The translations under genes were made by a program, and so were the position numbers. From a bacterium (GTDB lineage Bacteria > JACRDZ01 > JAJRWM01): 20,304 nt of DNA. The stretch is from positions 1-20,304 of the forward strand of contig JAJRWM010000123.1 of NCBI GenBank assembly GCA_024276815.1, given 5' to 3'. Positions 13,109-18,631 of this stretch are shown here, in pieces; positions within the stretch are counted from its first letter, which is position 1, and each line of letters starts with the position of its first letter. The notes beneath the pieces were generated by a model. That model saw only the letters and a program-made list of their open reading frames with translations, ran no database searches and was not told where the DNA came from.

Positions 13109-14485
13109 ATGTTGGTCGATACCCATATCCATCTGGATTTGAAGGAATTCAAGGCCGATCGTCAGGATGTTATCGAGCGCTCGTTTAAAGAGGGCTTCGT
13201 CCGATTAATAAATGTTGGCCTCAACCCCCAATCGATCGCCGCGTCAAAAAAGCTGGCTGAAGATAACGAACAGGTTTATTTTACGAGCGGCTTTCATCCC
13301 CACGACGTAAAAAACATAACCGCCGCGGACTGGCATTTTCTGGAAGTGGCCGCGGAGCATCCCAAAGCGGTCGCGGTTGGCGAAACCGGGCTTGATTTTT
13401 ATCGGAACATCTCACCTCGCGAGCTTCAAATCAGCGCCTTCCGCCGCCAGCTCGAACTGGCGAAAAAATTAAACAAGCCGGTGGTGATTCACAGCCGGGA
13501 CGCTATGGCTGACACTCTCAAGATAATCAGGGAGATTGGTTTAAGCGAGCGGGGCGGCGTCATGCATTGCTTCAGCGGTAATTATGACGACTTCCTCGCC
13601 TGCGCCGCTCAAGGCTTACACATATCTTTGGGAGGCCCTCTGACCTACCGCAGGAATGACGAACTGCGTGAAATTGTTAAAAAGATACCGCTCGACGCCT
13701 TGCTTTTGGAGACAGACGCTCCTTACCTGGCCCCGCAAAGTAAACGAGGGCGGCGCAACGAACCGGTATTTCTCAGCGAAGTCGTCGCGCTGATCGCTGA
13801 ATTAAAAGGACTGAGCGAGGCTGACGTTAAACGAATAACCACGACCAACGCCGAAAAGCTTTTTTCCCTCGGGATCAACATTCCTTCCGAGACCATCGCC
13901 TATCCGATCCGTAATTCCTTGTACCTGAATATTACCAGTAAATGCACCAACAGTTGCTTCTTCTGTGTCCGTTTTCAAAAGGACCTGCTCAAGGGTTATA
14001 ATCTCTTCCTGGAGCACGAACCGACTGTTGAGGAAATCATCAGGGCGCTTGGCGATTTGCCCAGTCAATACAAAGAAGTCGTTTTCTGCGGTTATGGCGA
14101 GCCTACAGTTCGCCTTGACGAGTTGCTGGAAGTTGCCCGCTATGTTAAAGAACGTTTTAAAAAACCGGTCCGTATCAACACTAATGGCCATTTCTACCTG
14201 CTGCACGACAAAAAACGTTTAAAGGAATTGCAGGGACTTATCGACTCGCTGTCCATAAGTTTCAACACCGCCGATTCGGAACAATACCGCAAGATATGTC
14301 TACCCCGGTTCGAGGGCGATGTCTTGCAAAGTGTAATAGAATTCAGCAAAGACGCCAAGGAGATTATCCCGCAAGTTACCATTACCGCCCTGAACTTGCC
14401 TGAAGTCGATCTCAAGGCGGTAGCGACCCTGGCCAGGGAATTAAAGGTTCATTTTCGCCGGCGTAAAATCAATGAAGCCGGCTAA
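13109..14485 (+). CDS. TatD-family metal-dependent hydrolase fused to a radical SAM domain
   Basis: 458 residues in two domains. Residues 1-255 are a TatD-type 3'-5' DNase/hydrolase barrel with metal ligands H6 and H8 (DTHIHLD), E92 (VGETGLDFY), H128 (HSRDA), H153 (MHCFSG) and D203 (LLETDAPYLAP). Residues 266-458 are a radical SAM domain with C279, C283 and C286 (CTNSCFFC) to bind [4Fe-4S] and GYGEPT at 328-333, the usual SAM-binding region. No frameshift separates them. In many bacteria these are two adjacent genes (tatD and a TatD-associated radical SAM protein); single-chain fusions are known in some anaerobes. What the radical SAM half does is not established. It starts 2 bases after metG, in the same operon. 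The TatD activity is inferred from conserved ligands. Confidence 0.93.
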   Translation: MLVDTHIHLDLKEFKADRQDVIERSFKEGFVRLINVGLNPQSIAASKKLAEDNEQVYFTSGFHPHDVKNITAADWHFLEVAAEHPKAVAVGETGLDFYRNISPRELQISAFRRQLELAKKLNKPVVIHSRDAMADTLKIIREIGLSERGGVMHCFSGNYDDFLACAAQGLHISLGGPLTYRRNDELREIVKKIPLDALLLETDAPYLAPQSKRGRRNEPVFLSEVVALIAELKGLSEADVKRITTTNAEKLFSLGINIPSETIAYPIRNSLYLNITSKCTNSCFFCVRFQKDLLKGYNLFLEHEPTVEEIIRALGDLPSQYKEVVFCGYGEPTVRLDELLEVARYVKERFKKPVRINTNGHFYLLHDKKRLKELQGLIDSLSISFNTADSEQYRKICLPRFEGDVLQSVIEFSKDAKEIIPQVTITALNLPEVDLKAVATLARELKVHFRRRKINEAG

Positions 14486-14504: not shown

Positions 14505-15833
14505 ATGCCATTTACCAACACCCTGTTTCGCTTTGAGGAATCGATTACCAGTGATGATTACGTTATAGCGACCTATTACCTGGAAACACCCATGAATTTA
14601 AACGAAGCGGCTAACGCGCTGGCCGCTGAGCAGACGACCGGCACCTGGAAAAGAGTCGGCGAGGAAACTGACGAGGTCAGAGCGCGCCACGCCGCCAAGG
14701 TTGTCGGCCTCTACCCGCTGCCTTATGAGGTGACCAAGGGCAACCTGCCAACCGGCATGGATTTAGCCAATTTCCTGCCCGAAGCCAGCGCCTCGCCCAC
14801 GATAAACGCCGCCATCATCAGACTGGCCTTTCCCCACATCAATTTCGGCCCCAAAATACCCAACCTGTTGACCGCGGTTGCCGGTAACCTGTATGAAATG
14901 GGCGCTTTTACGGCGATCAAGCTCCTGGACCTTCAATTTCCGGACAGTTTTCTCAAGCAGTTCAGAGGCCCTCGTTTCGGCATCAAGGGTTCGCAGGACG
15001 TGGTCGGGGTATATGACCGTCCCCTGGTCGGAGCGATCATTAAGCCATGCGTTGGCATTGACGTGGACACGCTGGCCAAACTGGCCTACGAAGGAGCTGT
15101 TGGCGGTCTTGATTTCATTAAGGATGACGAGTTGATCGCGGACCCTGACTATAACCGTATCTCCGAACGGGTCAAAAAAGTAATGACGGCTTTGAAGCAA
15201 GCCGAGGATGAAACCGGTGAGAAAACCATGTACGCTTTTAATATTACGGACCGGGTCGACCGCATCAGGGAACTGTACGACATTGTTATTGGAAGCGGCG
15301 GCAACTGTGTCATGATTAATGTCGCAACCGCCGGCTATTCGGCTATGCGTGTTCTGAGTGATTATACCGAAGTGCCAATTCACTGCCATCGGGACTTCGC
15401 CCCCTGCTACACCAGGTCGCCCTACCTGGGCATCAGCATGGCGGCTTTCACCAAGCTCTGCCGGCTGGCGGGAGCTGACCAGTTGCATTGCGGCGCGATT
15501 CAGGGCAAACTCTATGAGAGCGATGACGAAGTAATGACCAATATGACTGCCTGCCGCATGGAGTTGCCCCATATCCAGCCTTGTCTACCGGTCAGCAGCG
15601 GCGGTCAGTGGGCCGGTAAAGTACCGGTTAATTTACGCAAGATCGGTCACACCAATTTCCTCCATCTAAGCGGCGGCGGTATCTTCGCTCATCCCGACGG
15701 CCCCAGCGCCGGCGCGAAAAGTGTCCGGCTGGCCTGGGAGGCCTCGCTCAAAGGCGTCAAGCTCGAAGAGGCCGCCAAGGAGCATCAGGAGTTACAGAGA
15801 GCTATCGAGTTTTACGGCCGGGTTATCTATTAA
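14505..15833 (+). CDS. RuBisCO-like protein (RuBisCO large-subunit superfamily, probable form IV)
   Basis: 442 residues, ATG with AAAGGAGAG upstream. The N-terminal alpha/beta domain and C-terminal TIM barrel are full length. In spinach numbering these active-site positions are conserved: E60, T65 and W66 (AAEQTTGTW, here 42, 47, 48), N123 (N128), K175 (K180), carbamylated K201 with D203 and E204 (FIKDDE, here 206, 208, 209), H294 and R295 (295, 296), H327 (H328), K334 (K335), S379-GG (365-367) and the phosphate-binding glycines (390-392). Two differ: T173 is Ile178 and K177 is Cys182 (IKPCVG instead of IKPKLG). The motif HRDFAPCYTR replaces the usual HRAMHA. A true carboxylase is therefore unlikely. 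Known RLPs act as enolases or isomerases in methionine salvage or as transcarboxylase/hydrolases of branched sugar acids; I cannot assign this one. It is 19 bases after tatD-rSAM and 25 before glcD. Confidence 0.9.
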   Translation: MPFTNTLFRFEESITSDDYVIATYYLETPMNLNEAANALAAEQTTGTWKRVGEETDEVRARHAAKVVGLYPLPYEVTKGNLPTGMDLANFLPEASASPTINAAIIRLAFPHINFGPKIPNLLTAVAGNLYEMGAFTAIKLLDLQFPDSFLKQFRGPRFGIKGSQDVVGVYDRPLVGAIIKPCVGIDVDTLAKLAYEGAVGGLDFIKDDELIADPDYNRISERVKKVMTALKQAEDETGEKTMYAFNITDRVDRIRELYDIVIGSGGNCVMINVATAGYSAMRVLSDYTEVPIHCHRDFAPCYTRSPYLGISMAAFTKLCRLAGADQLHCGAIQGKLYESDDEVMTNMTACRMELPHIQPCLPVSSGGQWAGKVPVNLRKIGHTNFLHLSGGGIFAHPDGPSAGAKSVRLAWEASLKGVKLEEAAKEHQELQRAIEFYGRVIY

Positions 15834-15858: not shown

Positions 15859-17235
15859 ATGTCTAACCAGGCCATCCTCCAATCCTTGCGTAATATCGTT
15901 GGCAAAGAATTCGCGACTGATGTTTACGAAGAGCGGAGCTGTCACTCCTATGACGCCTCCAAACAAACCGGGCTACCCGACTACGTGGTCAGTCCGGGCT
16001 CGACTCAGGAAATATCGAAAATCATGAAGCTGGCCACCAGCAAGCTGATACCGGTTTACCCGCGGGGAGCGGCCAGCGGCCTGACCGGCGGGTCGGTTCC
16101 GACCCGGGGTGGCATCGCCCTGTCTCTGCTGCGCCTGAATCGTATCCTGGAAATTGACGACCGGGATTTAATCGCCGTCGTTGAACCCGGCGTCGTAACC
16201 GCGGCTTTGCAAAAGGAAGCGGCCAAACAGGGACTTTTTTATCCTCCCGACCCGGCCAGCTATAAATTTTGCACCATCGGCGGCAACGTCGCTGAATCAG
16301 CCGGCGGATTAAGGGGGCTAAAGTACGGCGTCACCAAGGACTATGTTCTGGGCCTGGAAGTAGTCTTGCCAAACGGTGAAATTTTAAACTTCGGAGTGAG
16401 AACGCTCAAGGGAGTAGTTGGTTATGACCTGACCCGTCTCTTTGTCGGCAGCGAGGGAACTCTGGGCATAGTCACCAGGGTGACCTTGAAGCTGATTCCG
16501 CTGCCTGAGGCGAAAGAAACCATGGAAGTCTATTTCCCAACCATTCAGGACGCCGCGGCAACGGTTTCCCGGATAATCGGAGAGAAGATAATACCGACCA
16601 CCCTGGAATTTATGGATAAAGAAACCATCGATTGCGTCAGCGGTTTTTTAAAAAAAGATTACCCTGACGAATTGGCGGCAATTTTACTTATTGAAATAGA
16701 CGGCGACCCTGACGTTCTCGACAAGCAACTGAACAAGGTAAAAAAAATCTGTTTAGCCAATAACAGTATCCAAATTAACATGGCCCGGAATGACCGGGAA
16801 CGCGAAGCTTTGTGGGCCGGGCGCCGGGCCATTTCGCCGGCGATTTACACCCTCGGCGGAGCTAAGATAAACGAGGATATTTGCGTGCCCCGGAGCAAAC
16901 TGCCGGCGATGCTGGACCGGATCGACCAGATAAGCCGGGAGCACAATTTGACCATAGTCAATTTTGGCCACGCCGGCGATGGCAATATTCACGTTAACCT
17001 CATTTTGCCTCATAATTTTACTGACACGGACAAGCAAAATGGTTTAGCGGCGATCGAAAAAATCTTTGACGCGACCCTGGAACTGGGCGGCACAATTTCC
17101 GGCGAGCATGGCATATGGCTTTCCAAGGCCGCTTACCTTGGCAAGGAAATTGGCGCCCGGGAAATAAAACTGATGAAGCAGGTAAAAAGACTGTTTGATC
17201 CTCACAACATCATGAATCCCGGAAAAATATTTTAG
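15859..17235 (+). CDS. glcD: FAD-linked 2-hydroxy-acid dehydrogenase (glycolate oxidase GlcD / D-lactate dehydrogenase type)
   Basis: 458 residues. The N-terminal FAD-binding (PCMH) domain shows YPRGAASGLTGGSVP and PPDPASYKFCTIGGNVAE, with RGLKYGVTKDYVLGLEVV and YDLTRLFVGSEGTLGIVT. The C-terminal cap has FGHAGDGNIHVNL and ISGEHGIWLSK, and ends FDPHNIMNPGKIF, the typical family ending. It probably oxidises glycolate, D-lactate or a related 2-hydroxy acid and passes electrons to the iron-sulfur protein encoded next. Substrate cannot be decided from sequence. GGTGAGG lies about 12 bases before the ATG. The stop codon TAG is also the first three bases of a palindromic element. Because RuBisCO-like hydrolases of the OiaX kind release glycolate, a glycolate substrate would fit the neighbouring RLP; this is inference. 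Confidence 0.93.
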   Translation: MSNQAILQSLRNIVGKEFATDVYEERSCHSYDASKQTGLPDYVVSPGSTQEISKIMKLATSKLIPVYPRGAASGLTGGSVPTRGGIALSLLRLNRILEIDDRDLIAVVEPGVVTAALQKEAAKQGLFYPPDPASYKFCTIGGNVAESAGGLRGLKYGVTKDYVLGLEVVLPNGEILNFGVRTLKGVVGYDLTRLFVGSEGTLGIVTRVTLKLIPLPEAKETMEVYFPTIQDAAATVSRIIGEKIIPTTLEFMDKETIDCVSGFLKKDYPDELAAILLIEIDGDPDVLDKQLNKVKKICLANNSIQINMARNDREREALWAGRRAISPAIYTLGGAKINEDICVPRSKLPAMLDRIDQISREHNLTIVNFGHAGDGNIHVNLILPHNFTDTDKQNGLAAIEKIFDATLELGGTISGEHGIWLSKAAYLGKEIGAREIKLMKQVKRLFDPHNIMNPGKIF

Positions 17236-17380: not shown

Positions 17381-18631
17381 ATGTACGACCTGAAATCTTA
17401 CGCTGAGCTGGCCGCGCGTTGCAGCCGCTGTGGTTCCTGTTCGACGATCTGTCCGGTTTTTCAGGTCAGCCGGCAAGAATCTTTGCTGGCCCGGGGAAAG
17501 CTGCATCTGGCGGAAAACGTCTTGCTGGGCAAGCAGAATTTAAACGCGGAAGTTGAGAAGAGATTAAACGCCTGTTTGCTCTGCGCCGCTTGTTCGAAAA
17601 GTTGTCCCAGCAAAGCTGAAGCGGACAAAATCATTCTGGCCGCCCGGGCGGCGGCTGTTAAAAAGCATGGTTTGCCTTTTCTGAAAAACCTGGCCTTCAA
17701 GCATGTCGTGCCAATGCGCAACCGCTTCGAATGGAGTTTGAAAGCGTTAGCTGTCATGCAGAAATATCTGCCGGCGGACCAGTACGCCGGTTCTTTTTAC
17801 CGCCATTTACCTTTTTCCATTTTAAATTTCAGCAGTAAAGTCGCCATCCCCAAGCTGGTGAAAAACTCTCTTTCGGCCCAGTGGCAAGAGGTAAAAGTCC
17901 AGCGGCCGAAGGCCCGGATCGCTTTCTTCAGCGGCTGTTTGACCGAGTTCATCTATCCTGAAATTGGCCTTGCCCTGCAAAGCGTATTAACAAAGTTGGG
18001 GTTTGAGGTAGTTAAACCCAGACAGAACTGCTGTTCGACTCCTGTTATCATGTCAGGAGAAATTGAGGTCGCCGGGGAAATGGCGGAAGAAAACATCCGC
18101 CACTTTTTAAATGAGGATTTTGATTATATTGTGACAGCCTGCGCTTCCTGCGGTTCCGCCTTAAAGAATCATTATCCTCAACTACTTGATGATAATGAAA
18201 CCGCCGCCGATGATTTTTCCGCCTACGTCATGGATATTAACGAGTTTTTGGTCAAGCATACCAAGATCACGGAATATCTGGACAGCAACATAAGGAAGAT
18301 CACTTACCATGACCCTTGCCACCTGGCCCGTCATCAGCTGATTACCGGGGAGCCAAGGCAGCTTATTCAGGCGACCGGAATAAATCTGGTGGAAATGGAG
18401 GCGTCAGACCGCTGCTGCGGCAATGGCGGGACTTTTTCCATTTATTACCCGGAGTTAAGTGAAAAGATACTGGATTTAAAAACCCGGTCCATAATAGCGA
18501 CCGAGGCGGACTACCTAGCTACCGCCTGCCCGGGCTGCCTGATGCAAATGCGGCGTGGTTTGGCAAAGCGCAAGGCGCCCCAAAAAGCGATTCACACCAT
18601 TGAACTCATCAACCAAGCTCTTAAATTATAA
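17381..18631 (+). CDS. glcF: Iron-sulfur electron-transfer subunit of the 2-hydroxy-acid oxidase (GlcF/LldE type)
   Basis: 416 residues. Two N-terminal [4Fe-4S] motifs are seen: C14, C17, C20, C24 (CSRCGSCSTICP) and C65, C68, C71, C75 (CLLCAACSKSCP). Two CCG (cysteine-rich) domains follow: FFSGCL with NCCSTP and TACASCGSAL, then YHDPCHLARH with RCCGNGGTF and TACPGCLMQM. This arrangement is standard for GlcF, the iron-sulfur subunit taking electrons from GlcD towards quinone or another carrier. In the first CCG domain the usual Gly after CC is Ser. The ribosome binding site is weak (TTGGGTTG). A 135-base palindromic element lies between glcD and this gene and may affect their relative expression. 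The pairing with glcD is well supported; the in vivo substrate and electron acceptor are unknown. Confidence 0.92.
   Translation: MYDLKSYAELAARCSRCGSCSTICPVFQVSRQESLLARGKLHLAENVLLGKQNLNAEVEKRLNACLLCAACSKSCPSKAEADKIILAARAAAVKKHGLPFLKNLAFKHVVPMRNRFEWSLKALAVMQKYLPADQYAGSFYRHLPFSILNFSSKVAIPKLVKNSLSAQWQEVKVQRPKARIAFFSGCLTEFIYPEIGLALQSVLTKLGFEVVKPRQNCCSTPVIMSGEIEVAGEMAEENIRHFLNEDFDYIVTACASCGSALKNHYPQLLDDNETAADDFSAYVMDINEFLVKHTKITEYLDSNIRKITYHDPCHLARHQLITGEPRQLIQATGINLVEMEASDRCCGNGGTFSIYYPELSEKILDLKTRSIIATEADYLATACPGCLMQMRRGLAKRKAPQKAIHTIELINQALKL

Follow-up and report, generated by a model that had tools for sequence, protein, structure and literature searches.

What does a protein do that keeps nearly the whole catalytic site of RuBisCO but carries a cysteine in place of Lys177? 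This question is raised by one gene in a 20,304-nucleotide stretch of bacterial DNA (hereafter the window; Table 1), and it bears on form IV RuBisCO-like proteins (RLPs) in general, which are the presumed source of RuBisCO, yet few of which have known reactions. The open reading frame is full-length in profile searches (PF00016, 234.5 bits; PF02788, 49.8 bits), and the AlphaFold model of the protein (pLDDT 92.7) matched solved structures with TM-scores of 0.83-0.90 and Z-scores of 43-50, the best being IV-Photo RLPs (1ykw/1tel, Z 50; 2qyg, Z 49), 3nwr (Z 49) and form III RuBisCO. By its fold and its PF00016/PF02788 domains, the protein is a member of the RuBisCO large-chain superfamily, and the window genome encodes no other. 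The gene just upstream (13109-14485) encodes a fusion of a TatD nuclease with a TatD-associated radical SAM domain (TIGR00010 and TIGR04038).

Table 1 Features of the RLP gene and its downstream neighbours in the window.
Feature	Position	Strand	Basis
RuBisCO-like protein (RLP), KPC group, 442 aa	14505..15833	+	ATG start, ORF and PF00016 match
Shine-Dalgarno-like AAAGGAGAG, 5' of the RLP start codon	14490..14498	+	Sequence
IIKPC motif, spinach 173-177 (Ile173, Lys175, Cys177; Cys codon 15048-15050)	15036..15050	+	Alignments
KDDE, predicted carbamate Lys201 and metal ligands Asp203, Glu204	15120..15131	+	Alignments
Asn272 (spinach 268); shared by all KPC proteins, replaced by Asp throughout the carboxylases	15318..15320	+	
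C-H-R, spinach 293-295; group-specific Cys293 before His294-Arg295	15384..15392	+	Alignment
SSGG, spinach 378-381; group-specific Ser378, phosphate-loop Ser379-Gly-Gly	15594..15605	+	Alignment
GlcD-type FAD-linked 2-hydroxyacid dehydrogenase	15859..17235	+	25 bp past the RLP stop; TIGR00387, PF01565/PF02913
GlcF-type Fe-S electron-transfer subunit, two CCG domains, 4Fe-4S dicluster	17381..18631	+	145 bp past glcD; PF02754 and Fer4

Spinach numbering was transferred to the window RLP through an 80-row alignment of 16 carboxylases and 64 other proteins. The residues that the original prediction had listed as retained were each found in the alignment: E60 (E42 in the window RLP), T65 (T47), W66 (W48), N123 (N128), K175 (K180), K201 (K206), D203 (D208), E204 (E209), H294 (H295), R295 (R296), H327 (H328), K334 (K335), S379 (S365) and the phosphate-loop glycines 380/381 (G366/G367) and 403/404 (G390/G391). 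The metal/carbamate site (K201, D203, E204) is intact and both RuBP phosphate-site residue sets are retained. The replacement of Lys177 by Cys (C182) and the loop DFAPCYTR after H294-R295 were confirmed as well, and H298A (A299) is a further change that the first reading had not listed. Two of the predicted peculiarities turned out to be less distinctive than assumed. Ile is indeed present at position 173 (I178), but it is not a departure, since 2/2 form II and 9/10 form III enzymes also have it. The near-complete site is likewise real but does not set the protein apart from other RLPs, as OiaX-type RLPs nearly always keep E60, T65, N123, K175, K201, D203, E204, H294, R295, H327, K334 and S379.

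Cys177, on the other hand, was invariant in all 22 aligned members of the group to which the window RLP belongs, drawn from Bacteria and Archaea, and is therefore not a chance substitution. We refer to these proteins as the KPC group; all of them keep the metal and carbamate residues and carry the motif I/V173-K-P-C177, and 21 of the 22 share the signature C177-N268-C293-S378 (the exception, L017, has Phe at 293). A published list of RuBisCO active-site residues includes Lys177 (PMC5786004). In our alignment this lysine occurred together with D268 in 16/16 carboxylases and neither residue was present in any of the 64 other proteins, indicating that positions 177 and 268 co-vary with carboxylase status; because this pattern tracks a split in the tree, it represents one or a few events, not 80. 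The invariant lysines of the KPC group are K180, K206, K317 and K335, none of them newly conserved and group-specific, so that, as far as the sequences tell, another Lys does not appear to have taken over the role of K177.

One might still regard the protein as a true but divergent RuBP carboxylase that manages with Cys at 177, given that the other catalytic and phosphate-binding residues are nearly all kept and that the genome has a single PF00016 member. We consider this very improbable. The window RLP has C177/N268 where every carboxylase has K177 and D268, and the bacterial KPC genomes contain no ribose-1,5-bisphosphate (R15P) isomerase above cut-off, both of which make the use of RuBP unlikely; moreover, the archaeal hosts G007-G009 also carry other RuBisCO-family genes, and the tree places the protein among form IV.

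How widespread are such proteins? When 84,980 species genomes were scanned, the hits comprised three relatives at 63-67% identity (two Nitrospirae MAGs and one Bacillota MAG) and three archaeal relatives at 44-50%, followed by OiaX-type RLPs at 37-45%. By direct genome search, the KPC group was present in 9/395 sampled genomes of the Nitrospirota phylum, 2/154 genomes of a Bacillota class and 12/23 genomes of one archaeal phylum, which we take to be, probably, Hydrothermarchaeota. A search of the window RLP against viral contigs gave no relative. KPC is an uncharacterised form IV group found in both Bacteria and Archaea.

Several unusual sequences were seen along the way. Two of the four genomes of the window's own phylum carry a different RLP; L003 and L004, from another genus of this phylum, encode a deep-branching RLP of another kind, marked by MFKPCVG and HPDFAGAM, and its gene is followed by a homocitrate/isopropylmalate-synthase-like gene. 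Three Nitrospirota KPC proteins (L106, L107 and L108), whose genes have no GlcDF, have Leu/Val in place of E60, Val/Met in place of T65 and Glu in place of N123; this N123E change is also present in IV-Photo. L178, from the archaeal genome G599, resembles the archaeal KPC proteins but has Asn177 together with Asn268, Cys293, Ser378 and HCHRDMFAAFTR, and there is no GlcDF nearby. L187 (archaeal genome G787) is an RLP or RuBisCO at the base of the carboxylase clade with KPD177 and Asn268, the other catalytic residues being kept, H298 included. L159 and L160, from small genomes of an alphaproteobacterial class, are RuBisCO homologues of form I length (477 and 463 aa) with a degenerate site without K175 or K201, MRPxTG standing in place of IKPKLG and TCDPT in place of MKDDE.

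The relationships were analysed with IQ-TREE under a mixture model, in a tree that was rooted on DeepYkr as an assumption and that contained no IV-AMC or IV-GOS rows. The window RLP lay outside the clade of forms I-III (support 100/99), outside the OiaX-like clade (22 rows, 100/100) and outside the Archaeoglobi, or IV-Aful, clade (100/100). The bacterial KPC proteins grouped with IV-Photo (100/98), and the two together were joined with the OiaX-like clade (100/99); the archaeal KPC proteins formed one group (100/98) near the base of this superclade, whose own branch had a support of 94/92. Archaeoglobi, L003/L004, MtnW and DeepYkr branched deeper under this root. A single clade of the bacterial KPC proteins alone, next to IV-Photo, is compatible with the data (p-AU 0.695), whereas one exclusive clade of bacterial and archaeal KPC proteins was rejected (p-AU 0.0001), and KPC is therefore a grade that gave rise to the OiaX and IV-Photo branches. 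The exact position of IV-Photo is unsure because it sits on a long branch: a smaller tree placed it at the base of the bacterial KPC proteins, and it may have arisen either within or beside them. An attachment of IV-Photo to the L106-L108 lineage, hinted at by the shared N123E, was not seen in that smaller tree.

The window RLP is thus form IV in the broad sense, lacking carboxylase-invariant residues (K177C and H298A), and KPC is a distinct deep-branching grade within form IV in a comparison that covered IV-Photo, OiaX/NonPhoto, MtnW, DeepYkr and Aful. This is only partly the separate subclass with I173/C177 that had been envisaged: the proteins do group outside forms I-III, MtnW, DeepYkr and OiaX/NonPhoto, but they do not form a single exclusive clade, and Cys177, although invariant within KPC, is shared beyond a single clade. 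Outside KPC it was found in 4/7 Archaeoglobi RLPs, in the MtnW-like protein 4nas and in L003/L004, and for this reason it may be old in the RuBisCO family, depending on the root. Similarly, the supposed lack of a match to known RLP types holds for OiaX/NonPhoto, MtnW, DeepYkr and Aful, with the qualification that KPC adjoins IV-Photo, its nearest described clade. When KPC proteins were compared with curated RLP models, the cut-off of no model was passed.

The best clue to the function of the RLP, which the first reading did not remark on, is its partner genes for GlcD and GlcF. In the window the order is RLP-GlcD-GlcF, all in one direction. GlcD and/or GlcF lay within 4 kb of the RLP gene in 16/25 KPC loci (6 of 13 bacterial and 10 of 12 archaeal), compared with 2/81 OiaX-like and 0/12 Archaeoglobi loci. 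The difference between KPC and OiaX-like loci gives a Fisher p of 7e-11, a value that ignores kinship among the loci and for that reason overstates the case; occurrence in both domains and the differing gene orders are a stronger argument for the link. It recurs with varied order and strand in the window's phylum as well as in Nitrospirota (L016, L128, L129 and, with GlcD only, L127), Bacillota (L220, in a genome of a Bacillota class) and archaea, where several of the ten loci with partners have only GlcF adjacent and two have divergent genes. Beyond GlcF, HdrA/MvhD-like genes were recognised by eye in L138 and L139, and a transaldolase-like gene, also by eye, near four Nitrospirota KPC loci (L015, L016, L128, L129). 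We found no description of the KPC motif, nor of an RLP paired with a glycolate oxidase, in the open-access literature, a body that leaves most subscription journals outside.

It is conceivable that this neighbourhood is incidental or merely regulatory and that the RLP performs an unrelated reaction. Nine of the 25 loci have no GlcD/GlcF (although some contigs, L017, L131, L132 and L141, end close to the RLP), GlcD-type genes are common, and the counts are non-independent because of common descent among the closest loci. We nevertheless think an incidental link unlikely, since GlcDF recurs across two domains in varied orders and strands and is nearly absent beside OiaX-like and Archaeoglobi RLPs.

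The GlcD/GlcF dehydrogenase suggests a short 2-hydroxyacid as a product, and we propose, tentatively and with a little less than even confidence, that the KPC RLP is a Mg/carbamate enediolate enzyme that releases such an acid, probably glycolate; we infer both substrate and reaction. Lys201 would be carbamylated and Mg2+ bound, and, by analogy with RuBisCO and OiaX-type RLPs, an enediolate would be formed from a phosphorylated 3-keto sugar or sugar acid. With the K177-D268 pair lost, part of the carboxylation machinery would be gone. The products would include a short 2-hydroxyacid, most likely glycolate, with D-lactate or D-glycerate as alternatives, and GlcDF would oxidise it to the 2-oxoacid, with quinone as the electron acceptor or, in some archaea, HdrA/MvhD-like partners. 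That the protein keeps a carbamylated Lys and a metal while acting on another substrate had been suggested originally; the residues K201, D203 and E204 are present, and the carbamylation and the substrate are predictions from sequence.

The transcarboxylase/hydrolase reaction of RLPs yields glycolate and 3-phosphoglycerate. Glycolate is our first choice because GlcD scores best with the glycolate oxidase model (TIGR00387, 479.9 bits, under the cut-off of 567.9) and because it is a product of an RLP in the clade next to it in the tree. That a transcarboxylase/hydrolase reaction exists among RLPs has been described (PMC6302742). Lactate is a plausible alternative, as the nearest solved homologues of GlcD are a lactate dehydrogenase (LctD, 7qh2) and a glycolate oxidase (9qgz). 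Against the glycolate reading, GlcD may be a dehydrogenase for lactate or another acid, nine loci have no such neighbour, L106-L108 combine a lack of GlcDF with altered E60, T65 or N123, and some archaeal loci have GlcF only.

Two characterised RLP types act after MtnA. The KPC proteins could similarly be isomerases or enolases downstream of MtnA in methylthioadenosine or 5'-deoxyadenosine salvage, like MtnW and DeepYkr, with GlcDF being secondary, and all searched bacterial KPC genomes except G006 have an isomerase that scores below the R15P-isomerase cut-off and was named MtnA-like by eye. However, MtnW and DeepYkr are without R295, H327 and K334, fitting single-phosphate substrates, whereas KPC retains all three, which suggests a substrate that carries a group at each of the two phosphate ends; in addition, mtnA was unlinked to the RLP in the six loci examined, lying beside unrelated genes such as ileS. 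We therefore judge a salvage role rather improbable.

A place in the apionate pathway, as a 3-oxo-isoapionate-4-phosphate decarboxylase or transcarboxylase/hydrolase, is brought to mind by the OiaX-like proteins of the neighbouring clade and by the OiaX model being the best NCBIfam match, although the 329.3 bits of the window RLP are far from the cut-off of 700 bits (NF042437). We give this role very little weight: none of 21 KPC genomes, the window genome (91% complete) among them, contained the PF07005 four-carbon-acid kinase, which all three OiaX-type genomes have, making apionate catabolism unlikely, and KPC belongs to a different clade with W66 and G380 versus F66 and S380 of OiaX and with differences at 177, 268, 293 and 378. 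An oxygenase acting on 3-keto-ribitol-1,5-bisphosphate, as described for one RLP (PMC10173188), was set aside because it needs O2 while the hosts look anaerobic.

A bolder proposal is that KPC proteins are enzymes of anaerobes, still able to add, remove or transfer CO2 on a non-RuBP sugar-phosphate enediolate (e.g., tetrulose phosphate to 3-phosphoglycerate and glycolate, followed by GlcDF) and that, at the same time, Cys177/Asn268 are ancestral to Lys177/Asp268 of the carboxylases. We regard this combination as a long shot; if it were true, KPC proteins would be living relatives of the intermediate that led from RLP to RuBisCO. The group keeps nearly all that a carboxylase requires and differs at the co-varying pair 177/268, it is basal to two large form IV clades and spans Bacteria and Archaea, and its partner dehydrogenase makes its reaction testable.

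Among the RLP groups described so far, IV-Photo, NonPhoto, AMC, GOS, DeepYkr, Aful and YkrW (PMC10173188), KPC was compared with five; it is outside NonPhoto, DeepYkr, Aful and YkrW and adjoins IV-Photo without being clearly inside it. The accessible part of a report on Hydrothermarchaeota labels some of their coding sequences 'form IV', with methionine salvage or sulfur metabolism as suggested roles (PMC6759336); these are probably the same proteins as our archaeal KPC group, and that part describes neither the motif nor a GlcDF link. MtnW/YkrW forms a separate clade, and the window RLP reached 220 bits against the TIGR03332 cut-off of 513.6; IV-DeepYkr is also separate, and its E204H is absent from the window RLP. 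Archaeoglobi RLPs (IV-Aful, including the second RuBisCO homologue of A. fulgidus) share Asn268 and, in 4/7, Cys177 with KPC, three A. fulgidus-type copies having Asp177 (KPD) and related copies KPC, but they differ in M295, V327 and P378, branch deeper and have no GlcDF; in L207 and L213 the RLP gene is preceded, in the same direction, by a saccharopine-dehydrogenase-like gene (by eye). Form III RuBisCO has Ile173, the same metal and phosphate residues and a similar fold (Z 45-47), but it possesses K177 and D268 and forms a separate clade. OiaX/IV-NonPhoto RLPs (apionate pathway; 3nwr) are 34-45% identical to KPC, keep most catalytic residues and belong to the same superclade; unlike KPC, they have F66, S/N/G/A177 and S380, with the four-carbon-acid kinase adjacent or in the genome. 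A published Leptospirillum RLP was likened by its authors to the form IV protein of 'Chromatium tepidum', the work cited there being on Chlorobium tepidum (PMC2607301). The IV-Photo RLPs of Chlorobium tepidum (1tel/1ykw) and R. palustris (RLP2, 2qyg) are the structures closest to KPC (38% identity, Z 50) and its supported neighbours in the tree, with Asn268 and Arg278 common to both; they nevertheless lie on a long branch (1.49) and have N177, Q65, F295, I327, R334, G379 and R404, where KPC keeps the residues of RuBisCO.
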